A program made the translations under genes and the position numbers. From Lachnospiraceae bacterium (GTDB taxonomy: Bacteria > Bacillota > Clostridia > Lachnospirales > Lachnospiraceae), in the NCBI GenBank assembly GCA_017437065.1, contig JAFSBX010000026.1, positions 1 to 56,521 of the forward strand: a DNA stretch of 56,521 nucleotides, in the 5' to 3' direction. Under the pieces are notes generated by a model. It searched no databases. It saw only the letters and a program-made list of their open reading frames with translations, and was not told the DNA's origin. Positions 38,666 through 54,404 of this stretch are shown here, piece after piece (position 1 is the stretch's first letter; each line of letters begins with the position of its first letter).

Positions 38666-39528
38666 ATGAAGCAGAAAAAAGCTCAAGATATCTTTTACAT
38701 TAATGAAAATAATGATTTGTTAAGTGAATATTTTGCAAAAGAAAACTATAAAGAAGTAATTGTAAATCCGGAGAAAAATTTATGTTATATTTTCTTTTCG
38801 GGAAATGGCTTATATTTTCCTAACACTGTGGAAGAATTTGAGAAAACAATTATAAAGAATAATCGGTTTGAATGGGAGAAGCTTGCAAATTCACCTTAAT
38901 TATTACAGAAAGCCGGAAAATATATTTTTTTGAGAGATCTTTATAAAAGTTGGTATATAGAATAAATACCAATATAGATTCTATAGATAAGCTCTATAAG
39001 TGGTTGAAAGAAAGAACAGAGGGGTATAGAATTATTACAGTGGGAAATTCAGCAGGTGGTTACATGGCAGCTTTAATGGGAAGCTTGCTGAAGGCAGAAA
39101 TGGTATTTGATTTTTCGGGACAGTTTTCTTTATATGCTACCAAAGATGTGTTGACTAAGTATGCATTGCTGAAAAAATATTCTGAAGATAAAGAACGTAA
39201 ATATTTTGATATTTGTGATTACATGAAGCATAATGAAAATGTTATGTATTTCTGGCCGGGAAAAAGTGAATCTGATATAGTGCAATATGAATTGGTAAAG
39301 GCAACAAAAATTTACAGTTTTAAATTTAAGGTGTGTATACATGGTCAATCTATGTATAGTGCCAATATTCCATATTTATTAGTACAAGATAAACAATATC
39401 TAGTAGATTTGTATAAGAATTATGAAGGGAAAGATATTGTTAAAGAAGAATTTTTTATTAGAACAAAAGGTGTAAAAGCTCTTGTTATGATGTATCTATT
39501 GATTTTAAAAAAGAAAATAATTAAATAA
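38666..39528 (+). pseudogene. broken copy of a serine-hydrolase-like gene
   Basis: This is a decayed duplicate of the intact gene at 42533. The frame stops at TAA 38897-38899, where the intact copy has CAA (Gln). About 75 bases later, after the shared GGTATATA, this copy has lost four bases, which shifts the frame; the rest reads from 38950 to 39528. The nucleophile-elbow sequence GNSAGG is still present in the downstream part. The ATG corresponding to the intact start is 38666; an upstream in-frame ATG (38600) exists only here. Confidence 0.9.
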
Positions 39529-42371: not shown

Positions 42372-42532
42372 TCATACTGCAAAAACATGTGTGTTATATT
42401 TGTTAAAAAGGGAAGTGATTATACTACTACAGTTAAACTTTTTACAGGTGTATGCGTGGTGATATATGAAGGGTGGATTTAGGCTAAAAAAGAGCAACAA
42501 TCAAGGTAGTGATAAATAAGAAGAGGAAAGCT

Positions 42533-43405
42533 ATGAAGCAGAAAAAAAATCAAGATATCTTTAATATTGATGAAAATAATGATTTGCTAAGCGAATATTT
42601 TGCAAAAGAAAACTATAAAGAAGTACTTGTAAATCTGGAGAAAAATCTATGTTATATTTTCTTTTCGGGAAATGGCTTATATTTTCCTAACACTGTGGAA
42701 ACATTTAAGAAAACGATTATAAAGAATAATCGGTATGAATGGGAGAATATTGCGAATTCACCTCAATTATTACAGAAAGCCGGAAAATATATTTTCTTGA
42801 GAGATCTTTATAAAAGTTGGTATATAAAAGGAATAAATAATAGTGTAGATTCTATAGATAAGCTCTACGTGTGGTTGAAAGAAAGAACAGAGGGGTATAG
42901 AATTATTACAGTGGGAAATTCAGCAGGTGGTTATATGGCAGCTTTAATGGGAAGCTTGCTAAAGGCAGAAATGGTATTTGATTTTTCGGGACAATTTTCT
43001 TTATATGCTACCAAAGATGTATTGACCAAGTATGCATTGTTGAAAAAATACTCTGCAGATGAAGAACGGAGGAAATATTTTGATATTTGTGAATATTTGA
43101 AGCATAATGAAAGTATTATGTATTTTTGGCCGGGAAATAGTGAATTTGATATAACGCAATATGAGTTAGTAAAAGCAACGAAAATTTATAGTTTTAAATT
43201 TAAGGCGCGTATACATGGTCAATCTATGTATAGTGCTAATATTCCATATTTATTAGTACAAGATAAACAATATTTGGTGAATTTGTATAAGCATTATGAA
43301 GGGAAAGATATTGTTAAAGAAGAATTTTTTATTAGAACAAGAGGTGTAAAAGCTCTTGTTAAGATGTATCTATCAATTTTAAAAAAGAAGATAACTAAAA
43401 GTTAA
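42533..43405 (+). CDS. alpha/beta-hydrolase-like protein (possible esterase), intact copy
   Basis: About 290 residues. The GNSAGG nucleophile elbow, with Ser130, follows a hydrophobic strand (RIITVG), and a candidate catalytic His is His228 in RIHGQSMYSANIP. No signal peptide is seen, so the protein should be cytosolic. The family is not recognised; deacylation of a glycan precursor is one possibility, but that is a guess. The start is set at ATG 42533, behind AGAGGAAAG at suitable spacing, and not at the upstream GTG (42509). A decayed duplicate lies at 38666. Confidence 0.68.
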   Translation: MKQKKNQDIFNIDENNDLLSEYFAKENYKEVLVNLEKNLCYIFFSGNGLYFPNTVETFKKTIIKNNRYEWENIANSPQLLQKAGKYIFLRDLYKSWYIKGINNSVDSIDKLYVWLKERTEGYRIITVGNSAGGYMAALMGSLLKAEMVFDFSGQFSLYATKDVLTKYALLKKYSADEERRKYFDICEYLKHNESIMYFWPGNSEFDITQYELVKATKIYSFKFKARIHGQSMYSANIPYLLVQDKQYLVNLYKHYEGKDIVKEEFFIRTRGVKALVKMYLSILKKKITKS

Positions 43406-43443: not shown

Positions 43444-44208
43444 ATGAAAAAAGTATCATTAATATTAACAAGCTACAACTGCAAAGATAACATTCAGCGT
43501 ACATTGGAAAGCATCGAAAAGCAGGACTATCCCAATATTGAGGTAGTGATTGCTGACGGCCTTTCAACAGATGGAACGCTGGAAGTTATCAGGCAGTTTG
43601 AACAACAGACAAAGCATGCATGTAAATGGAAATCAGAAAAAGACAAAGGCATTTACGATGCAATGAATAAAGGATATGCGATAGCAACCGGAGATATTAT
43701 TGCCTTCTTTAATGATTTATTTCTCGTACCTAATGCAGTGTCATTAATGGTGAATGCAATAGAAAGTGGAGACTATGTCGGTGCTCATGCGGATTTAATT
43801 TATGCCACAGATGAAAAAGTAAAGCGTTTTTGGAAAATGGGGCAGGGTAAAATTCAAAGTGGCTGGATGCCGGGACATCCGACGCTGTATTTGAAACGGG
43901 AAGTATATGAGAAATATGGATTATATAATACAGCCTATAAATGTTCTGCGGACTATGATTTTATGGTTCGCATTCTAAAGGATGGAGCTGTAAAACTTGC
44001 ATATGTTCCAACAACAATTATCCGTATGTATTATGGTGGAACAAGTACGGCAGGTGCAGGAAGCTATGTGGTATCCCTTAAGGAAGCCCATCAGGCTTTG
44101 AAAGAAAACGGGATAAAAGCTACATGGTGGATTGATTTTAGAAGGACTTTGCGGTTAGTTGTGCAATTTTTACGAGCAGGTTCATATGAAGGGAATATAA
44201 ATGTGTAA
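43444..44208 (+). CDS. GT2 glycosyltransferase (WcaA-like)
   Basis: 254 residues with VSLILTSYNCKDNIQRTLES, VVIADGLSTDGT, SEKDKGIYDAMNKGYAIATG and the metal motif region IIAFFNDLFLVPNAV, in which the expected D-D pair has only one aspartate (N-D-L). The later WMPGHPTLYLKREVYEKYG is common in this group. It resembles the GT2 at 10910 and is less AT-rich than the preceding genes. GGAG lies about 9 bases upstream. It is followed at once by the truncated Rpn-type pseudogene. Confidence 0.87.
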   Translation: MKKVSLILTSYNCKDNIQRTLESIEKQDYPNIEVVIADGLSTDGTLEVIRQFEQQTKHACKWKSEKDKGIYDAMNKGYAIATGDIIAFFNDLFLVPNAVSLMVNAIESGDYVGAHADLIYATDEKVKRFWKMGQGKIQSGWMPGHPTLYLKREVYEKYGLYNTAYKCSADYDFMVRILKDGAVKLAYVPTTIIRMYYGGTSTAGAGSYVVSLKEAHQALKENGIKATWWIDFRRTLRLVVQFLRAGSYEGNINV

Positions 44209-44210
44209 AT

Positions 44211-45002
44211 ACACAAAGATTGCTGGAGTTGTATAATGCGCTTAACGGAAGTCACTATGAGAATCCGGACAGTCTTATTATCAATACGCTGGAAAATGCC
44301 GTGTATATGAAGATGAAAAATGACGTTTCGTTCATTATTGAGAGTAATATGTGCCTTTATAAACATCAGTCCAGTTATTGTCCTAATATGCCGTTACGTG
44401 GCTTTTTCTATTTTTCTGATTTGTACAAAAAGCTCCTAAAAGATATAGACTTAAGTGTAGGAAAGAGAATTAAAATCCCGGCACCGAACTATATTGTTTT
44501 TTACAATGGGAAAGAGCGGGATGAGGAAGAATTTACAGAAAAATGATCAGACTCATTTGAGGATGATAAAGAAGGATGCTTAGAACTTACTGTGCATACA
44601 ATAAACATAAATCGAGGACATAATGAGAGTCTGATAAAAAGGAGTCCTTCTTTGTATGGATATGCTTATTTTGTATCGTTAGTTCGAAGAAACATGGAGA
44701 GCATGGAGCTAGAAGAAGCCGTAGAGAGGGCTGTAGATGAATGTATTCGGGAAGATATATTGAAAGATTTTTTGCTGGAGCAGAAAGCGGAGGTAGTGGC
44801 GATGTCGATATATGAATACAATGAAGAATATGCAAAGAAGGCGAATTTTGAATCTGGTGAAGAAGCAGGTTTTGTTCGTGGACAAGAGCGTGTAAATAAA
44901 CTCATCCGCATACTTTCCGAGCAGAACCGGATAGGCGACATTACTCGTGCGGCGAACGATAAAGAGTATCAGGAAAGGTTATTTGAGGAGTTTGGGATAT
45001 AG
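44211..45002 (+). pseudogene. Rpn-type PD-(D/E)XK nuclease/putative transposase, broken
   Basis: Two open segments in the same frame (to 44543 and from 44547) are separated only by a TGA at 44544-44546. Joined, they match the Lachnospiraceae-rich Rpn family (recombination-promoting nuclease/putative transposase): RLLELYNALNGSHYENP, then INTLENAVYMKMKNDVSF and YKHQSSYCPNMPLR; then LTVHTININRGHNESL and AVERAVDECIREDIL. The N-terminus is lost, and the remnant begins inside or at the end of the GT2 gene. It is therefore dead twice over. Confidence 0.82.
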
Positions 45003-45065: not shown

Positions 45066-45094
45066 TTGATGTAATTTATGAAACATGCTACAAT
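45066..45094 (+). promoter_or_regulatory. extended -10 promoter for the ATPase/DUF4276 pair
   Basis: TTGATG (45066-45071) and TACAAT (45089-45094) are 17 bases apart, and TGC precedes the -10, giving an extended -10 box. It lies about 100 bases upstream of the ATPase start, in a 190-base gap after the Rpn relic, so this module is probably transcribed on its own. Confidence 0.72.
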
Positions 45095-45150
45095 GTTGAG
45101 GTAAATTTATTGTGTATATATTTCATGGAGAGACAAAAAAGAAAGGGAAT

Positions 45151-45178
45151 ATGGTGCTTTATTTTTTGAAAGCATCAT
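45151..45178. other. hairpin just upstream of the ATPase start codon
   Basis: ATGGTGCTTT and AAAGCATCAT pair over ten bases (one G-U) around an eight-base loop rich in T. The hairpin ends 15 bases before GTG 45194, so it lies in the 5' leader and could affect translation. The T-run is in the loop, not after the stem, so it is not a standard terminator. Confidence 0.6.
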
Positions 45179-45193
45179 ATATGGAATTGGTCG

Positions 45194-46279
45194 GTGAATG
45201 AAAAACAGATTACTAAAATAGTAATTAAAGGATTTAAATCTATTGAATCGTGCGAACTTGATTTTCAGATGATTAATATTTTGATTGGAAGTAATGGTTC
45301 AGGAAAGAGTAATTTTATTTCTCTTTTCAAAATATTACAGAGTATGATAGATGGAAATTTGCAGTTGTATACAGCTCAGCATGGTGGATCAAATGCATTT
45401 TTGTTTTTTGGAAGTAAAAGGACACAAAAACTTACAGTTGAATTTTATTTTGGAACCAATGGGTACCAATTTGAACTGATCCCTACAATGAATAATGGGC
45501 TGATGTATTCTGGAGAATGGTTTTATTGGAATCAGTGCGGTAAAAAGCAAGTGGGTAGTGGGCATATGGAATCACTTTGGCGTAAGGGCACAGGAACAAG
45601 AATTGATTCATTTGTAAAGAGCATTTTGGAAAATCAAAGATGGAGAGTTTATCATTTTCATGACACAAGTGATTCTGCATTGGTAAAGCAAGTGTGTGGG
45701 ATTAATGACAATTATGAACTTGCTACAGATGCAAGGAATCTGGCTGCATTTTTGTATCGTTTAAGAATAACTGAAGAAGGAAATTATAGGCAGATTGTGA
45801 GAACTATTCGTATGGTTGCTCCCTATTTCAAGGATTTTGTTTTGCATCCTAATCCCTTTAAGGCAGATACAATTTATCTGGAATGGAGTGATATAAACAG
45901 TGATATTCCGTTTACAGTAGCACAATTGTCTGATGGTACATTGCGGTTTATTTGTTTAGCGACACTTCTTTTGCAACCGGAGAAATTAATGCCGGAAACT
46001 ATTTTAATTGATGAACCCGAGCTTGGATTACACCCCTATGCAATATCTGTGCTTGCAGCTTTAATAAAAAAAGTATCCGTAAAAAAACAAATAATTATTT
46101 CTACACAGTCAGTTGAATTGTTAAATGAATTTAGTGCCAATGATATTATTGTAGTAAATCATACGAAAAATCATTCAGAATTTAAGCGGTTAAATGAAGA
46201 AGAATTACAAGTGTGGATTGATGAAGATTATACAATGGGTGAGCTTTGGAAAGGGAATATTATAGGAGGTCGTCCATAA
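45194..46279 (+). CDS. AAA family ATPase (SMC/OLD-like, AAA15/COG4637 type)
   Basis: 361 residues. The N-terminus TKIVIKGFKSIESCEL then INILIGSNGSGKSNF has Walker A at residues 32-39. Near residues 240-275 come LSDGTLRFICLATLLLQP (ABC-like signature) and ILIDEPELGLHP (Walker B with catalytic Glu and D-loop His). This is the RecF/SMC-like ATPase type that accompanies nuclease effectors in many phage-defence modules. It is followed one base later by a DUF4276 gene, the usual partner. The start is GTG 45194; the ribosome site is weak. Confidence 0.88.
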   Translation: MNEKQITKIVIKGFKSIESCELDFQMINILIGSNGSGKSNFISLFKILQSMIDGNLQLYTAQHGGSNAFLFFGSKRTQKLTVEFYFGTNGYQFELIPTMNNGLMYSGEWFYWNQCGKKQVGSGHMESLWRKGTGTRIDSFVKSILENQRWRVYHFHDTSDSALVKQVCGINDNYELATDARNLAAFLYRLRITEEGNYRQIVRTIRMVAPYFKDFVLHPNPFKADTIYLEWSDINSDIPFTVAQLSDGTLRFICLATLLLQPEKLMPETILIDEPELGLHPYAISVLAALIKKVSVKKQIIISTQSVELLNEFSANDIIVVNHTKNHSEFKRLNEEELQVWIDEDYTMGELWKGNIIGGRP

Positions 46280-46280
46280 G

Positions 46281-46906
46281 ATGAAAAGAGTAATTGTGTA
46301 CTGTGAGGAACTACAGAGGAAACTTTTGTCAATCAGATATTGAGCCCTGTCTTTGCGCAGGAGGGTATATGGATGACAGCTACATCTTTTAACGGTGTAT
46401 CAAAATATAGTATTATTAAGAAGAAATTATCTGATTTGTGTAGAAGTGACAAATCGGCAGTGGTTACTACAATGCTGGATTACTATGGATTACCTTCTGA
46501 TACTCCGGGGAAAAATCCACAATATGGTATTGATATTTATGAACGGGTAGAGCATGTAGAAGAGTGTATTAAGCAGGATATTGGATTAGATAATTTACTT
46601 CCCAATATTATTATGCATGAATTTGAAGCCCTGTTATTTTCAAAGCCGGAGTGCTTCGAGTATTGTGAATTACCGAAAGGTGACATTAAAAAATTATGTG
46701 ATATGTGCGGTGCGGCAGAAACGCCGGAACACATTAATAACAGCCCTAATACTGCACCATCTAAGAGAATATTAGCTGTATATCCTCAATATTCTAAGGT
46801 GATTGATGGATATAATATTGCACTTGACATTGGCTTATCAACGATGCGTAATGAGTGTAAGCATTTTGATAAATGGTTAAGTATGCTTGAAAATATAAAA
46901 GTGTAG
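46281..46906 (+). pseudogene. DUF4276 family (Toprim-like) partner, frameshifted near its start
   Basis: ATG 46281 begins MKRVIVYCE and then runs to a stop at codon 22. One base appears lost near 46308: with one more base (GAG GGA ACT) the protein would read VYCEGTTEETFVNQILSPVF, the normal start of DUF4276 with its V-x-x-EGxTE motif, which resembles the Toprim metal site of OLD nucleases. From 46310 the other frame stays open to 46906, with LDYYGLPSD and MHEFEALLFS, typical of the family. A single-base change could equally be a sequencing error, phase variation or true inactivation. The AAGATG start overlaps the ATPase end. Confidence 0.8.
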
Positions 46907-46970
46907 ATAGATTATCGTCATATGGTAATTTTCAACAAAAATCTTAAGAAACCATTAACTTCATTGAAGT

Positions 46971-47007
46971 AAAAATCCAAGTGTGCTACTATAACACTTG
47001 GATTTTT
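46971..47007. terminator. intrinsic terminator after the ATPase/DUF4276 module
   Basis: AAAAATCCAAGTGT (46971-46984) and ACACTTGGATTTTT (46994-47007) form a perfect 14-base stem around a nine-base loop, followed by GTTTTTA. The A-run and T-run at the two ends could let it work in both directions. Confidence 0.9.
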
Positions 47008-47084
47008 GTTTTTATGTAAAAGAAAAGTGCTTGAATGAAGACAATTCACAAGAAAAATTTTAAGAAAAGGGAAGTGTACATACA

Positions 47085-50000
47085 ATGAAATGGAAAGAGA
47101 AGTTGAAAAGGTTACTTGTGCTGGGACTAGCAGCGGGAATTACTATCAATAGTATCCCGCTGTCCTCTTATGCTGCGACGATTCAGGGGCAGGAATCGAA
47201 TATGGCAGTTATTGTTGAAGAAGATGCAGGTATGATTACAGAAGAAGCAGAAAACGAAACGGACTCCGTTCAGGAAACCACAGAAGCAGAAACAGAATCC
47301 GTGGTAGAGACAGAAGTTGAGTCGTCCATAGAAAATGAGACCGAAACAGAGACGGAAGTCACAACAGAAACGGAAACCGAGACTGAGGATGCAACAGAAA
47401 CTGAGGTGGAAACCGGGATCGAAGCAGAGACTGAAACGGAAACCGAATTTGAGACAGAGACAGAGTCAGACACTACAACGGAATTTGAGACTGAAACAGA
47501 GTCAGAGACCGCAACGGAATTTGAAACCGAAACAGAGATAGAAAGCGAGAATGAAAAAGAACCGTTGACCCGGCAGATAGAAGAGTTGGAGAAACAGGCA
47601 AAAGAAGCACTAAAAGATATAGTAACTTCAGAGTACGTCATGGCACTTGTCTATCTGTGTGATGCTTATGAGGTAAAAGCAGAAGCAGATTTTGAGGCGC
47701 AGACCGTAGAAACTCTTACCAGTGGACATACTGTATTAATACAGGATGTTGCGGTGGATACAGAGAGCATGACAATCTGGTATCAAGTATCCTTTACAGC
47801 AGATCAAGGTGAAAAGACAGGATACATATTAAGTAACTATCTGGCATATTCCAATGAAAACTTCCTTACATGGGAAGAAAATTATGTAAAACCCATTCAA
47901 AGATTACTGAATGAAAATAAAGGTGATATGCAGGCAGTTTTCAGTGATGGGGCAATGGGAACATACTCCAGCGATGTGTCACAGTTCCCTTCCAGTTATC
48001 AGAGTGCACTGCAGAAATTAAAGGACAGTCATCCGAACTGGACATTTGTAAAGTTTAATACAGGACTGAATTGGAATGATGTTGTATACAATCAGTTACA
48101 TCCGAAGGAAAGAAGTTTGGTTTATTATACCCGGGGTGAGGAATGGAAAAATGGAAAGTATGACAGTAGCTGGTATTATGCATCAGAAGCTGCTGTAAAA
48201 TATTGTTTGGACCCTAGAAATGGATTAACAGATCCGCGCATATTCCAGTTTGAGCAGCTGACATATAATTCGAGTTATCATACTGTGTCTGCCATTCAGG
48301 GAATATTGAACAGTACATTTATGAAAGGCACTGTTCCGAAAGCAACTGTCAGCTATGCACAGGCATTTTATACCATTGGAAAAGACAGAAAATTAAGTCC
48401 GTTCCATTTGGCTTCCCGAGTAATTCAGGAACAGGGTGTAACCGGCGGCTCACCATTGATTTCCGGAAATTATACAGGATATGATGGTCAATATAAAGGA
48501 TACTATAACTATTTTAATGTAGGTGCAACTTCCGACAATCCGATTCTTAACGGTTTGAAGTATGCAAAATCAAAAGGATGGAATACCCCGTACAAGTCTT
48601 TGGAAGGCGGAGCGGATACCATTGGAAAGAACTACATTTTACAGGGACAGGATACACTGTACTTACAAAAGTTTGATGTAGAGAGTAAGTACCATGGACT
48701 TTATGCACACCAATACATGCAGAATATTCAGGCACCGACAACAGAAGCATCTACCATTCGAAATTTATACAATCAGGCAGGTGCATTGGAGGGTAAATTT
48801 GTATTTAAAATTCCGGTATATAATGACATGCCGGATACAGCCAGCCCTGAACCGGGGTCAGAAACCGTTTCATTGAATATAAACAGTGCAAGTGTAAAGG
48901 GTGGTTACAGTACAACTGTCAGATACACAATTAATAATATAAAAAGCAGCAGTAGTACGCTGTCTTACTGTAGAGCACAGGATTCTATTGTTTCCATAAA
49001 AATCAATAATGATGAAACAAAGACAAGTGGCACTACAAAAACGGGTACCGTTACAATTACCGGATTAAAGCCCGGTGAAACATATGTTACTTTTACAACC
49101 TCCGGTGGTGCTACAGCAGCATGCAAAATTACTGTAGTGAAGGACACTATTACGCTTGATAAGACAGTGGAAGTGGCAGCAGGTACTTTGGATGGAAGTA
49201 TCAAAGGAACACCAATAGAAATTAATTATGAAATTAATAATCCGAAAAGTGAAGTGGTAACATGCAAGGTAGACAAGACCGATTTACTTAAGGCAGAAGT
49301 AATTTCAGAAGAGGAAGATAGTAAAAATAATAAGATTACAGGAAAAATCAGACTGACCGGATTAAAGCCGGGAACAGCGAAACTCACTTTGACTTCCAAG
49401 TATGGCGGTTCGGCAACATGTACGGTGAAAGTGGTACGTCTTCCGGAAGAAATTATTATGGAAACGGAAGAAATAATTGTAGGTATAGAGAATAGTAAAA
49501 CAGCCCGTGTTACTGTGTTGCCGGAGGATACAACCAATAAAAATCTTATATGGGAAAGTTCCGATGAGAGCATAGCTATTGTGAATCCGTCTACCGGAAG
49601 AATAACGGGAGTAGGAGAGGGAACAGCTACTATTACAGTAACTACAGAAGCAGTTACATTAAAAACAGGTGAGCAATTGCAGGAATCCTGTACAGTAACT
49701 GTAATTCCATCGGTGGAAAGTGTAGAACTTGCAGCAGAAGAAGTGGAACTCAGTCTGAAAGATGGTGAAACTTTTGAGCTAAACGGCAAAATTATTTTAA
49801 ATGGAGCTGAAACAAGTGAGTTTTACAATATCGAGTATATCAGTGCCGATGAAGAAATTGCTACAGTAGATGAGAGTGGTGTGGTTACACCGATTGCGGT
49901 AGGTAATACTGTGATTACGGCAATTGTAAAGGATGATTATGCATCTTCCGGAACGAAGCGTGCAACTTGTAAGGTTAGTGTTATACCGGAACATAAAGAG

Positions 50001-53000
50001 GAAATAATTATTCCGGAATACGGTTATGTACAGCCGGAAAGCATTCAGATTTACAAGAATGATACAGAGGAAGAAATAACCGAAGATACTTATGTAAATT
50101 CACCATTAAAAACAGATGGAAAAGCCGTTTTAAAATATGCAATTTCTCCTGCAGGTGCAAATGTGGAAAACGTAACATGGGAGAGCAGTAATTCTTCCAT
50201 AGCAGAAATTACACAGAATGTTGATGTTAACGGTAATTATGACGGTACGGTAACTATTACCGGAAAGACAAAAGGAAATGCGGTAATTACAGTGTCTACA
50301 GATATTGGTATTGAGAAAAAGCTAAATATCGTTGTAGAAGGAAAACAGGAAATTACAGAGGTTAAGTTAAATAAAACAGATGCTGTGATTTATGTGAATG
50401 GTGCAGATGGCGGTGATTCGGGTGTAATCGGAAATGAAAGTTTATCATCTACGGTACAGCTGAATGTAACACCGGCAGCAAATCAGGAAAGTGGTATTAG
50501 TTATACATGGAGCAGTACAAATGAAGCGGTTGCTGTAGTAGATGAGAATGGTAAAGTTACAGCAGTTGCACCCGGTAAGGCAGTCATTGTTGCAGAACAC
50601 ACCGGAGGAAGCGGAAAGTACGCAAAATGTACGATAACAGTAGAACGTTGTTTGGAAGAAATAACAACAAGTGTAGATGAGTTATATTTACAGCCTAACA
50701 AAAAAGTAACGATAACAGCTTCAATACTTCCGGCAGACAGTACAATTAAAAACTTAGAATGGGAAAGTGACAATGAAGAAGTTGCCACAGTGACACAAAA
50801 AGGTGTTGTTACTGTGAAGAAGAATACAGAAATCGGAGCACAAACGGTTATTCGTGTGACAGACCGGACTACAGGACTTTCGAAAGAAATTCCGTTGACG
50901 GTTACAGCAGCGGCAACTAAGAGTGTTACACTTTATACAGAAGATACGGACGAAGAAGGTAATCCGCTGAAAGCCGGGGCGCAGACTTTATATGTGAACG
51001 GTAACGAAGAGGAACAGAGCGTTATTATCAATGCGAAAGGGTTTGATACACAGAAAGCAGAAATTGAAAATCTGTCCTTCTATGCTACAAGCAGTAATAA
51101 AAAAGTAGCAGAGGTTGTACAGAATACAGATTCCGAAGGAGTTTATGATGGTACATTTAAGATAATTGCCAAAGCCAAGGGAAGCACCAATATTAAGGTG
51201 TTTGCTGCGGATGGCAGTGGTAAAAATGCAACGGTTAAAGTGACCGTGAAAGTATATCCGGAACAGGTAAATGTATCGAAAGAAGCGCTTTATATAACAC
51301 CTGGTAGCTCTGGTACGTTGGGAGCTGTAGTGACTCCTTCCAATGCAAATGACAAGGGAGTAGTATGGAAATTTGCAGACGGTGAGCTGAAAGACTCTAA
51401 GCATACTATGGATGGATTTACACTTGATCCGAAAAGCGGAAAAGTAACTATTCAGAGAGGTACAGCCACAGGAGAAACAGCAGAGTTTGTTGCTGTAAGT
51501 AAGTCAGGTGGTGTGGAATCCGAAACAACATGTACAGTAACGGTAATCTCCAAAAAGGTTACAAAAGTAAAACTGAACAAAACTTCCATAATAATGACCG
51601 GTGATGATGTAAGTCAGATTTCGGAAGAGCAGATAATTGCAACAGTTTCACCAAGTGCTGCAAGTGTAAAGGATTTGAAATACACAAGCAACAACGAAGC
51701 TGTAGCAACAGTAGATGAAGATGGAATGGTAACAGCAACCGGTTATGGTATGGCAACCATTACAGTATCTACATTAGATAACAGCAAAAAAGCAACCTGC
51801 AAGGTTTATGTAACCTCTTTAGATAAGGCGTATAAACTCTCTGCGGTTACAAAGAATTTTAATATTCAAAGTTATGCTTCGGATATTAACAGTCGTTGTG
51901 CACTTGCAATAAAAGACCAGTACGGAAATATTCTGGATAACAGTCTGTTTACGTTTACAAGTAATAAGCCGGCAGTGGCAGAAGTGGATGAAAACGGAAT
52001 TGTAAGCCCGAATAAATCCTTTGAAGGGGCAAAGAACGGAAAAGCAACCATTACAGCAACATTGACTGGTGATCCATATAAACGTAAAGTAACTTTCACG
52101 GTAACAGTTCTTGCAAAAAATCAGGCGGAAACTGTTTCGGTTACTGCACAGAATATTAGAGGAACTGATATAACAAATAAAAACTTTGCCGTAAAATATC
52201 CGATTACAAAGGATGCAAATACAATTTCTCTTACAGCTGAGGCACTGAATGTATACGGAGAGGCTTTGGATACGAAATTGAAATGGACAGTTTCAGATAC
52301 TTCCGTAGCAGCAATTAAGGTGGAAAAAGATACAAAGAGTGCGGTGCTGACAGTGAAAAAAGCAGGAAAATTCTACGTTACCTGTACGGCAAACGATACA
52401 TTAAAGAAGAGTCGTGTCATTCAGATAACAGCAGTAGATACCAAACCTGTTTTAGTAAATAATAAAATTACTTTAAATATACAGAGTGAGCCGGATGAGC
52501 AGTCTTATGTACAGGCTACAAGCCTGCACTTTGTAGAAAATAAAGAGTGTCCGATTCAAAACATTTCTGTTAAGAGTGTGAAAAAAGGAAAAAATGAAAT
52601 TAATGCTTCAGCTTTTGAGGTGAAAGAAGTAGAAGATGGTTACTATGCGGTATTTGTACCGGAAAGTTCTTTGGTAAGCCTTACGAAAGGGAATTATAAT
52701 GTAGTACTTTCTGTGGAGACAAACGGTCTTCCAGAGTTAGGACTTGGAAGTAAGGTGAAACATGATATTCCGGTGACTATGAGTATAGTAAATACGAAAC
52801 CAAAGGTAACTGTGAAAACAGCAACCATTAACTGTCAGAACCTTGAGCAGTTAGATACGGTGCTTCAAGTAACTGCACCGGATGTGGTAGAAAGCATACA
52901 ATTAGTAAAAGGACAGACAAATAAGTTTGATACCAGATTTGAATTGGTAGAAGAAGATGGTGTCTTTATATTAAAATTTGTAGATACAGCAGGGTATAAG

Positions 53001-54404
53001 GCTTCATCCATTACAGGAAAAGCGCAGATTAAAGTGGCAGGTTATCAGCCGGTAACAGTAAATGTGAAGGTAAACACACCTACCACGAAGGCATCCATTG
53101 TGACTTCAGAGGTGCCGGCGTTGGATGTGAAGATGGGAAGAGCGCAGAAGATAACTCTCATTGATAAGAAAACCAAAGAGGTTCTGAAAAATTATACGAT
53201 TGAAATACCAAAAGATGCGAAATTGGACATCGAGCAAAATGACGATGGTACGCTGAGCATAAAACCAGTGAAAGAAATGGTTGAAAAAGGGAAGTATAAA
53301 AATGGTTCAAACGTGACTGTAAAGGCAAAAGTAATGGCATTGTCCGAGGAAGGTATAGAACTGTGGAAGGACAAAGTAAATGTCAATATCAGCGTAAAGG
53401 TCTATACAGCTACACCGACAGTATCACTTGGTGCCACAACGCTTCAGTTAAACAGGCAGGTACCAAAAGAAACAGTGGAAACCTCAATCAGCATTAACAG
53501 AAGTAATGTACGGGTTGCAGATGACAGTGAGTGGAAAATTGAGCAGTATAATGCCAAGGACAAAAAATACACCATGATTAAAGGATGGGATAAATTACCT
53601 GAGGAGACGAGCGGAGACATTGTCTTGTCTTATAACCGACAGAGCAAGACTCTGTGTGCTTCCTTTAAAGAAGATGTAAATGTGAAAGCAGGCAATTACA
53701 AATATCGTATCACATGGATTGCAGAGGATTATTCCCTTGTGAAAAGAGATGTGACAGTGGTAGTAGTTGACAGAAAGCCAACCGCAAAAATATCTTCCAA
53801 AGGGAAGCTGGATCTGCTGACCAGATCAGATTCGACTATGCAGGGAACCATTAAATTAACGAATACAAAAGCTAAAGTAAAATCCATTACAATGATGGAG
53901 CCGGTTGCAAGCGGAGTACCTACAGAGAGAAACGAGAGTTTTTACACCTCATGGTTAGGAGATAATACTTTCCGTATCCGTCTTCGAGAAGGTGTGAAAA
54001 TGACAACCGGTAAGAAGACGATTCCGGTTAAGATTGTACTGGAAGGTGGGACTGTACTTTACAGTAATGTATCTTTCACGGTAAGTCAAAGCACACCGAA
54101 AGTAGTGATACCGAAAGCACAGACGATTTATAAATCAGGAAGCAACACAACGGTATGCTATGATATGAATACACAGATTCCTAAAGGGTATGAAATCAGC
54201 ACAATAAAAACTGTTTCAGCACCGACAGGAATTGGTGTGACGGTTGAAAACGGACGTGTATCTGTTTCTCTGGCAAACAGATATTTGAAGCCGGGAACTT
54301 GTAGTATTAAAGTGAATATGTATTTTAAAGGTGCACAGGATGTATTTGGAAGCGATTATGGAAAAGCTTTACAGAAGACATTGAAAGTGACCGTTAAAGA
54401 GTAG
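47085..54404 (+). CDS. giant secreted beta-N-acetylglucosaminidase with Ig-like (Big2) repeats
   Basis: 2439 residues. A signal peptide (about 1-30, basic KWKEKLKRL then a hydrophobic core, ending SSYAA) directs export. Residues 40-165 are an acidic Glu/Thr-rich low-complexity stretch. An SH3-like region follows (about 185-265), then a glucosaminidase domain (about 305-565) of the LytD/GH73 type, with the likely catalytic Glu449 in ASRVIQEQG and YNYFNVGA downstream. From about residue 590 to 1690, eight or nine Ig-like Big2 modules repeat the pattern W-x-S-S/D-x-V-A-x-V and G-x-A-x-I-T-V. The last 750 residues are beta-rich and of another type. It probably cleaves peptidoglycan at the cell surface. 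No LPXTG, SLH or choline-type anchor is seen. Confidence 0.88.
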   Translation: MKWKEKLKRLLVLGLAAGITINSIPLSSYAATIQGQESNMAVIVEEDAGMITEEAENETDSVQETTEAETESVVETEVESSIENETETETEVTTETETETEDATETEVETGIEAETETETEFETETESDTTTEFETETESETATEFETETEIESENEKEPLTRQIEELEKQAKEALKDIVTSEYVMALVYLCDAYEVKAEADFEAQTVETLTSGHTVLIQDVAVDTESMTIWYQVSFTADQGEKTGYILSNYLAYSNENFLTWEENYVKPIQRLLNENKGDMQAVFSDGAMGTYSSDVSQFPSSYQSALQKLKDSHPNWTFVKFNTGLNWNDVVYNQLHPKERSLVYYTRGEEWKNGKYDSSWYYASEAAVKYCLDPRNGLTDPRIFQFEQLTYNSSYHTVSAIQGILNSTFMKGTVPKATVSYAQAFYTIGKDRKLSPFHLASRVIQEQGVTGGSPLISGNYTGYDGQYKGYYNYFNVGATSDNPILNGLKYAKSKGWNTPYKSLEGGADTIGKNYILQGQDTLYLQKFDVESKYHGLYAHQYMQNIQAPTTEASTIRNLYNQAGALEGKFVFKIPVYNDMPDTASPEPGSETVSLNINSASVKGGYSTTVRYTINNIKSSSSTLSYCRAQDSIVSIKINNDETKTSGTTKTGTVTITGLKPGETYVTFTTSGGATAACKITVVKDTITLDKTVEVAAGTLDGSIKGTPIEINYEINNPKSEVVTCKVDKTDLLKAEVISEEEDSKNNKITGKIRLTGLKPGTAKLTLTSKYGGSATCTVKVVRLPEEIIMETEEIIVGIENSKTARVTVLPEDTTNKNLIWESSDESIAIVNPSTGRITGVGEGTATITVTTEAVTLKTGEQLQESCTVTVIPSVESVELAAEEVELSLKDGETFELNGKIILNGAETSEFYNIEYISADEEIATVDESGVVTPIAVGNTVITAIVKDDYASSGTKRATCKVSVIPEHKEEIIIPEYGYVQPESIQIYKNDTEEEITEDTYVNSPLKTDGKAVLKYAISPAGANVENVTWESSNSSIAEITQNVDVNGNYDGTVTITGKTKGNAVITVSTDIGIEKKLNIVVEGKQEITEVKLNKTDAVIYVNGADGGDSGVIGNESLSSTVQLNVTPAANQESGISYTWSSTNEAVAVVDENGKVTAVAPGKAVIVAEHTGGSGKYAKCTITVERCLEEITTSVDELYLQPNKKVTITASILPADSTIKNLEWESDNEEVATVTQKGVVTVKKNTEIGAQTVIRVTDRTTGLSKEIPLTVTAAATKSVTLYTEDTDEEGNPLKAGAQTLYVNGNEEEQSVIINAKGFDTQKAEIENLSFYATSSNKKVAEVVQNTDSEGVYDGTFKIIAKAKGSTNIKVFAADGSGKNATVKVTVKVYPEQVNVSKEALYITPGSSGTLGAVVTPSNANDKGVVWKFADGELKDSKHTMDGFTLDPKSGKVTIQRGTATGETAEFVAVSKSGGVESETTCTVTVISKKVTKVKLNKTSIIMTGDDVSQISEEQIIATVSPSAASVKDLKYTSNNEAVATVDEDGMVTATGYGMATITVSTLDNSKKATCKVYVTSLDKAYKLSAVTKNFNIQSYASDINSRCALAIKDQYGNILDNSLFTFTSNKPAVAEVDENGIVSPNKSFEGAKNGKATITATLTGDPYKRKVTFTVTVLAKNQAETVSVTAQNIRGTDITNKNFAVKYPITKDANTISLTAEALNVYGEALDTKLKWTVSDTSVAAIKVEKDTKSAVLTVKKAGKFYVTCTANDTLKKSRVIQITAVDTKPVLVNNKITLNIQSEPDEQSYVQATSLHFVENKECPIQNISVKSVKKGKNEINASAFEVKEVEDGYYAVFVPESSLVSLTKGNYNVVLSVETNGLPELGLGSKVKHDIPVTMSIVNTKPKVTVKTATINCQNLEQLDTVLQVTAPDVVESIQLVKGQTNKFDTRFELVEEDGVFILKFVDTAGYKASSITGKAQIKVAGYQPVTVNVKVNTPTTKASIVTSEVPALDVKMGRAQKITLIDKKTKEVLKNYTIEIPKDAKLDIEQNDDGTLSIKPVKEMVEKGKYKNGSNVTVKAKVMALSEEGIELWKDKVNVNISVKVYTATPTVSLGATTLQLNRQVPKETVETSISINRSNVRVADDSEWKIEQYNAKDKKYTMIKGWDKLPEETSGDIVLSYNRQSKTLCASFKEDVNVKAGNYKYRITWIAEDYSLVKRDVTVVVVDRKPTAKISSKGKLDLLTRSDSTMQGTIKLTNTKAKVKSITMMEPVASGVPTERNESFYTSWLGDNTFRIRLREGVKMTTGKKTIPVKIVLEGGTVLYSNVSFTVSQSTPKVVIPKAQTIYKSGSNTTVCYDMNTQIPKGYEISTIKTVSAPTGIGVTVENGRVSVSLANRYLKPGTCSIKVNMYFKGAQDVFGSDYGKALQKTLKVTVKE
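47445..47552. repeat. three 36-base tandem repeats coding a 12-residue acidic unit
   Basis: Units start at 47445, 47481 and 47517, each beginning GAATTTGA, and code EFETETESDTTT, EFETETESETAT and EFETETEIESEN. They lie inside a longer Glu/Thr-rich stretch in the stalk after the signal peptide of the giant glucosaminidase. In-frame units like this can change in number between strains. Confidence 0.85.

Follow-up and report, generated by a model that had tools for sequence, protein, structure and literature searches.

The anti-phage system PARIS is triggered by the anti-restriction protein Ocr and joins the ATPase AriA to AriB, a protein carrying DUF4435 (PF14491), whereas Gabija fuses an ATPase and a Toprim domain in GajA and adds a UvrD-like GajB. 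Deleting either PARIS gene abolished defence, as stated in the accessible part of the study concerned (PMC9122126), and the available portion of a 2026 survey describes OLD-ABC ATPases with TOPRIM nucleases as backup effectors inside BREX loci, grouping them as PARIS-like (PMC12839542). Here we analyse two adjacent genes, encoding a compact ATPase and a DUF4276 protein, in a 56,521-nucleotide contig of a Lachnospiraceae bacterium (JAFSBX010000026.1 of assembly GCA_017437065.1; ‘the window’ is this whole stretch). An initial annotation had read them as a self-contained defence module related to PARIS and Gabija, with the Toprim-like protein as effector. Judged by profile matches, the pair is a locus of HEC-01, a candidate system already catalogued in PADLOC, where HEC stands for ‘Hma-embedded candidates’ (expansion from the accessible part of PMC12988326). 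With a probability of roughly 70%, we read HEC-01 as an OLD/PARIS-related system with two separate genes, one encoding an SMC-like ABC ATPase and the other an OLD-type Toprim nuclease; the ends of these genes usually overlap, and in this genome the nuclease gene is out of frame.

How close does this locus come to the described systems? The ATPase scores 67.1 bits against AAA_15 and 90.9 bits against AAA_21, far above the Pfam cut-offs and above the limits for a PARIS ATPase (at least 32 bits for AAA_15 or at least 27 bits for AAA_21) given in the accessible text of PMC9122126. Its partner, by contrast, carries DUF4276 in place of DUF4435, the latter being absent from the nine families to which 44 intact relatives gave matches at E<=0.1, and the AriA chains listed are 464 residues long, compared with 361 for the window ATPase. 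Membership in PARIS was rejected because DUF4435 is absent, and membership in Gabija because there is neither a fusion, the window and 52 of 54 relatives having two genes, nor a GajB, the pair being flanked by a broken Rpn-like gene upstream and a 2439-residue protein downstream. The likeness to class 2 OLD proteins and Gabija lies in the Toprim fold and in a similar order of E..E, D, E and K residues, with the difference that DUF4276 conserves only one acid of the DxD motif, and the TOPRIM-linked OLD-ABC effectors of BREX are echoed by HEC-01 pairs placed between PglX and PglZ in two relatives (L033 and L041). The proposed kinship with PARIS- and Gabija-type systems thus holds for the OLD-type Toprim fold and the conserved pairing, and fails for membership in either; by analogy, the pair likely works like PARIS, though it is no PARIS member by its defining parts. 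That the pair is ‘less described’ is true of its mechanism, as far as visible, and untrue of its name, the pair being a PADLOC family already. HEC-01 is merely listed in the accessible part of a Desulfovibrio piger study, and no paper naming DUF4276 was found in the open-licence literature searched.

The assignment to HEC-01 is carried by both genes (Table 1). The PADLOC search, which the initial annotation had suggested, matched HEC-01A to the ATPase with an E-value of 6.3e-145 (residues 1-361 on positions 1-362 of a 363-position profile) and HEC-01B to the ORF (open reading frame) 46340-46906 with an E-value of 1.9e-61 (residues 3-186 on positions 34-226 of 230). Gene order agrees with that of 52 of 54 relatives, with the A profile matched whole and the B profile over the part that the ORF covers, the N-terminal part being unmatched because of the frame break described below; the window copy differs from the catalogued system in standing alone, with no defence neighbour found, and in having its B gene out of frame. 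The DUF4276 protein scores 151.5 bits against the Pfam family, far above cut-off, and this was the sole family matched at E<=0.001. The ATPase ORF is real, as had been annotated, and its Walker A and Walker B residues are invariant in an alignment of 44 rows, taken from 50 ORFs of over 330 residues by leaving out L001, L017, L028, L035, L053 and L054, of which L001 is a copy of the window. Its predicted model is closest to SMC/Rad50 heads; AriA and GajA were absent among the best 50 structural matches listed, which excludes nothing. The genome is a 3.91-Mb draft in 156 contigs with an estimated contamination of 5.58%, and scanning all of it returned a single DUF4276 match (E-value 1.6e-49), at the window locus. 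The G+C content of the pair, 34.4% against a mean of 34.7% over 1.7-kb windows, bears no mark of foreign origin.

Table 1. Coordinates of the features in and around the HEC-01 pair of the window
Feature	Position	Strand	Remarks
Remnant, presumably Rpn/PD-(D/E)XK-transposase-like, upstream of the pair	44208..45002	+	homologue residues 82-361, 81% identity, one frame
Promoter-like site TTGATG-17-TACAAT, TG before the -10	45066..45094	+	9/12 matches
Leader hairpin, 12 base pairs, arms 45149-45160/45169-45180	45149..45180	+	fold of 45100-45200
HEC-01A ATPase, compact SMC/Rad50/OLD-type ABC	45194..46279	+	GTG start, 361 residues, intact
Expected start of the DUF4276 gene (ATG one base past the ATPase stop)	46281..46343	+	frame closes after 20 codons
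Candidate HEC-01B DUF4276 Toprim nuclease frame	46307..46906	+	cut off from its own start; EGTTEE divided between frames
Intrinsic-terminator-like hairpin, 14 base pairs, T-rich right arm (46971-46984/46994-47007)	46971..47007	+	fold of 46960-47010

What kind of protein is DUF4276? The protein of an intact relative (L002) yielded a predicted fold with a pLDDT (predicted local distance difference test) of 94.7, and only four PDB chains matched this model at E<=1e-3, all of them Toprim regions of OLD nucleases. Residues E9/E13, D67, E114/E116 and K173 are invariant in 44 of 44 rows, that is, among the rows selected as complete: 44 of the 48 motif-bearing relatives were aligned, L017 being left out as near-identical to L014 and L030, L046 and L053 because their C-termini are incomplete. 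By order and spacing these positions echo the two-metal site of OLD, a matching made with no printed superposition, and the active site of class 2 OLD (E400/E404, DxD, T506/E508 and K562) is only partly matched, one DxD acid being conserved. Judged by strand ends, D67 would be the first acid of the DxD motif and, judged by a weak hhalign alignment, the second; the same alignment places E9 on the EG of OLD. Two residues after the single DxD acid stands an invariant tyrosine. The predicted model supports an OLD-type Toprim fold with most of the two-metal active site, and the Toprim-like effector of the initial annotation is thus right in kind, its weaker points being the absent DxD acid and a window copy that is out of frame.

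The nuclease gene of the window, as sequenced, loses its frame inside the first catalytic motif. The frame from the expected ATG, which in L002 is likewise separated from the ATPase stop by one base, runs from 46281 and stops at 46341-46343, and the DUF4276 frame is open from 46307 only, preceded by a stop at 46304-46306, which leaves an overlap between the frames at 46307-46340. The ORF as listed starts with a TTG (46340) that already lies within the Toprim domain, and its product would be missing the first strand of the modelled fold together with the catalytic glutamates (EG..E); the ORF covers 26 of the 32 near-invariant columns and keeps 25 of them. The single ‘adjacent DUF4276 ORF’ with an EGTTEE-type motif accordingly dissolves into two frames, and with it the picture of a self-contained module at work in this genome. 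The mention of a frame-intact homologue in the initial annotation hints that the break had been noticed there, although its stated reasoning is silent on the point. If the sequence is right, the window copy is probably inactive, an expectation that follows from the loss of defence in PARIS when either gene is lost, and is probably an allele that has lost its function recently while its ATPase has stayed intact.

The pairing itself is conserved. Scanning a single genome from each species yielded 54 loci, in 52 of which the ATPase gene lies directly upstream of the DUF4276 gene, the remaining two (L013 and L015) beginning at a contig end. Among the 48 loci with an EG.[TS]E start, the start and stop codons overlap by four bases in 33 and by any length in 38, counts for which start codons were picked by rule, the gap listed for L019 being an artefact of a split ATPase. 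Gene order and overlap support the view that the ATPase and DUF4276 form a conserved unit. In the window's own family, DUF4276 of any kind occurs in 15 of 299 genomes (12 above cut-off), and the two loci inspected there (L063 and L064) have the ATPase alongside. Neither of two congeners has a DNA match to the pair, and one of them is without DUF4276; in this empty-site comparison, the congener matches to the flanks were partial or multi-copy. No phage record matched, and both genes are complete in all 12 plasmid records that carry the pair. In one viral contig (L115:4149-6660) the pair stands directly after a repressor-like gene and before packaging-type genes; the transposase and the packaging-type ORFs on this contig led us to read it as a Mu-like prophage. 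The genome of L055 (G313) holds one HEC-01B match that spans nearly the whole profile, along with fragmentary matches at three other places, L055 among them, as if the nuclease had decayed there repeatedly.

Where, then, do these pairs reside? By comparison with 17 reference defence proteins, partly drawn from the same loci, restriction-modification (R-M), BREX or Hma-type neighbours were found in eight of the 54 loci (a smaller reference set gave four). Five have them on both sides, namely HsdM and HsdS (L022), PglX and PglZ (L033 and L041), type III Mod and Res (L050) and HmaB-like ORFs (L020), with the names PglX and Mod taken from family tally and similarity, not from single scans; three have them on one side (L011, L030 and L036), the contigs of L030 and L036 ending shortly past the pair. 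Near the window pair there was no hit to the 17 proteins. At E<=1e-20, PADLOC families numbered 77 in 86 and 77 in 95 near neighbours (181 of 182 scanned, L009:1458-2129 being dropped as a piece of the ATPase itself), 76 in 100 of 188 distal neighbours and 24 in 100 of 213 control ORFs; because these tallies count families, not genes, one protein matching many models, and because distal equals near, they are no proof. Ten neighbours picked as promising were also scanned singly, and nine matched a PADLOC family, the one from L044 matching none. On plasmids, the order is SNF2, pair and methyltransferase in Aeromonas media, methyltransferase, pair and helicase in A. veronii, and helicase, methyltransferase, pair and Mrr in Ideonella; in L090/L091, L096 and L097 the pair lies within or beside helicase–methylase operons, and the other eight of the 12 plasmid records have no such operon directly around it in the PLSDB gene table, which is incomplete. 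These placements support the conclusion that some pairs sit inside defence operons.

The reading of HEC-01 as an OLD-type defence pair is carried by the match to a named family, the conserved pairing, the gene overlap, the Toprim fold modelled for an intact relative and the invariant residues, and a number of observations weigh against it. The DxD motif lacks one of its two acids, which makes nuclease activity uncertain. The DUF4276 profile aligned to OLD-like proteins in hhalign at an E-value of 0.002 but a probability of 14%, all 25 fetched proteins being used at first and 10 in a repeat run, for which 15 weak hits had been dropped that were judged to be topoisomerase B subunits from their length and recurrence. 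The Pfam family OLD-like_TOPRIM was touched by only three of the 44 members, at E<=0.1; past the OLD rows, VIA scores equal the level of unrelated folds. Sequence searches gave as little, the DUF4276 profile having no hit among PDB sequences at E<=1 and phmmer with the window ORF a single hit at chance level. Turning to the neighbourhood, 46 of the 54 loci have no hit to the 17 reference proteins, and enrichment near defence genes, which the initial annotation had put forward as a test, could not be demonstrated: defence neighbours in eight of 54 loci against none of 13 control stretches give p = 0.34, which is not significant. Twelve of these controls lie at least 50 kb from a pair on the same contig, and the thirteenth (L114) is on another contig of the L055 genome, which carries the full HEC-01B match about 280 kb away. 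The Pfam families of the neighbours are mostly ordinary (among the first 25 of 101 and of 92), and no phage assay of HEC-01 was seen in the open-licence literature, a published assay elsewhere being possible.

Could the frame break be a mere artefact? A sequencing or assembly error, in which case the strain carries an intact HEC-01, is a possibility that we take seriously while leaning against it. It is favoured by the fragmentation and contamination of the draft genome, by the conservation of the near-invariant columns that the DUF4276 frame covers and by a second frame-split gene, itself a further point against our reading, some 6 kb upstream: an alpha/beta-hydrolase-like gene (38684-39525) that is divided across two frames relative to a paralogue (42509-43405) with 85-88% identity. 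The break site, as read by eye, has no long homopolymer, and the adjacent Rpn-like gene is damaged as well, having lost its start and suffered an in-frame break, so that natural decay seems to occur here; the split hydrolase-like gene fits assembly error or decay, and the Rpn-like remnant speaks for real decay. That the nuclease is still produced, by ribosomal frameshifting or by re-initiation at the TTG, would agree with the overlap of the frames and the conservation of the rest of the gene, and strikes us as extremely improbable. The motif is in frame with the rest of the protein in 48 of the 54 relatives, which makes a shift no family trait, and no classical slippery heptamer was seen by eye in the overlap, grounds on which a programmed frameshift was rejected; re-initiation, for its part, would yield the truncated product described above.

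The other two alternatives concern function. The ATPase may be kept for a role of its own with the nuclease dispensable, as in Escherichia coli YbjD (OLD), whose anti-phage phenotypes need the ATPase and not the Toprim domain according to the accessible part of PMC13261556; this seems improbable to us. The window ATPase is complete, and genes falling below 93% of the profile in one frame are more frequent for the nuclease (seven of 50 loci) than for the ATPase (three of 50), counts from which four loci cut by contig ends were set aside, in which the window's break lies too near the start to register and which include several metagenome assemblies. The discordant loci, six against two, do not differ significantly (p = 0.29), PARIS needs both of its genes, and no locus had a complete ATPase and no trace of a partner in a search that was seeded with the partner and hence blind to such loci. 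Slightly less probable still is a housekeeping module for DNA repair or chromosome maintenance, RecF- or SMC-like, to which the SMC/Rad50-like model, the many loci lacking a reference defence hit, the ordinary neighbour families and the cell-cycle role of an archaeal OLD-family ATPase (accessible part of PMC12796447) would be congenial. It is opposed by the patchy spread of DUF4276 and of the pair, by the presence of the pair on plasmids and, beside a repressor-like gene, in a Mu-like prophage, and by placement inside R-M and BREX operons, and on the same grounds a plain housekeeping ATPase was rejected.

Of the signals flanking the pair, only the terminator is clearly above chance. The extended -10 promoter of the initial annotation is present and weak as evidence, the region containing 16 such matches against 10.1 +/- 3.3 in shuffled sequences. 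The leader hairpin was found as annotated, with a z-score of -1.91 and 10 of 200 shuffles folding as well or better, and so was the closing 14-base-pair terminator, at a z-score of -5.48 and with equal stability in none of 200 shuffles; the latter lies past 46906, where the annotated module ended, and its right arm ends in T. A terminator scanner reported no site at 46971-47007, allowing loops of 3-8 bases where this loop has nine. Upstream, the first 81 residues of the homologue of the Rpn-like remnant are unmatched and its frame is divided into two ORFs (44220-44546 and 44592-45002); the remnant, whose family name we presume, has no Pfam match. A congener has a 361-residue homologue beside a glycosyltransferase-like ORF (L057). 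The split hydrolase-like gene and its paralogue share one glycan locus. Downstream (47085-54404) lies the 2439-residue protein, of secreted and cell-wall type, in which the signal region is followed by a segment rich in Glu and Thr and which contains numerous repeats; portions of its first 772 residues also have matches on six further contigs of this genome.

If HEC-01 is indeed an OLD-type defence pair, how might it act? By analogy with the described systems, the HEC-01A ATPase would sense infection, perhaps as phage interference with host restriction, and would hold or license the HEC-01B nuclease, which may then cut DNA or RNA such that infection is stopped, at the expense of the cell or of the phage. 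A more speculative and rather unlikely extension is that HEC-01 constitutes a second, independent ‘guard of the guards’: a split OLD-type system residing within restriction, BREX and helicase–methylase operons, whose DUF4276 Toprim nuclease would fire when a phage disables them, whose site, having one DxD acid and an invariant tyrosine, would be adapted to a substrate unlike that of Gabija or PARIS, and whose frame break in the window would be a switched-off or discarded suicide effector.

Beyond the catalogue entry, the present analysis contributes an OLD-like interpretation of DUF4276, in which only one DxD acid is conserved, an inventory of operons that host the pair, and the observation of a frame break in the window copy. 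For this genome the break is a caution, in that the module appears complete, yet its effector is out of frame. For the family, a ‘domain of unknown function’ becomes a testable nuclease candidate with six named candidate active-site positions, and the examples of a split ATPase–Toprim system inserted into restriction and BREX operons suggest where its trigger might be sought.
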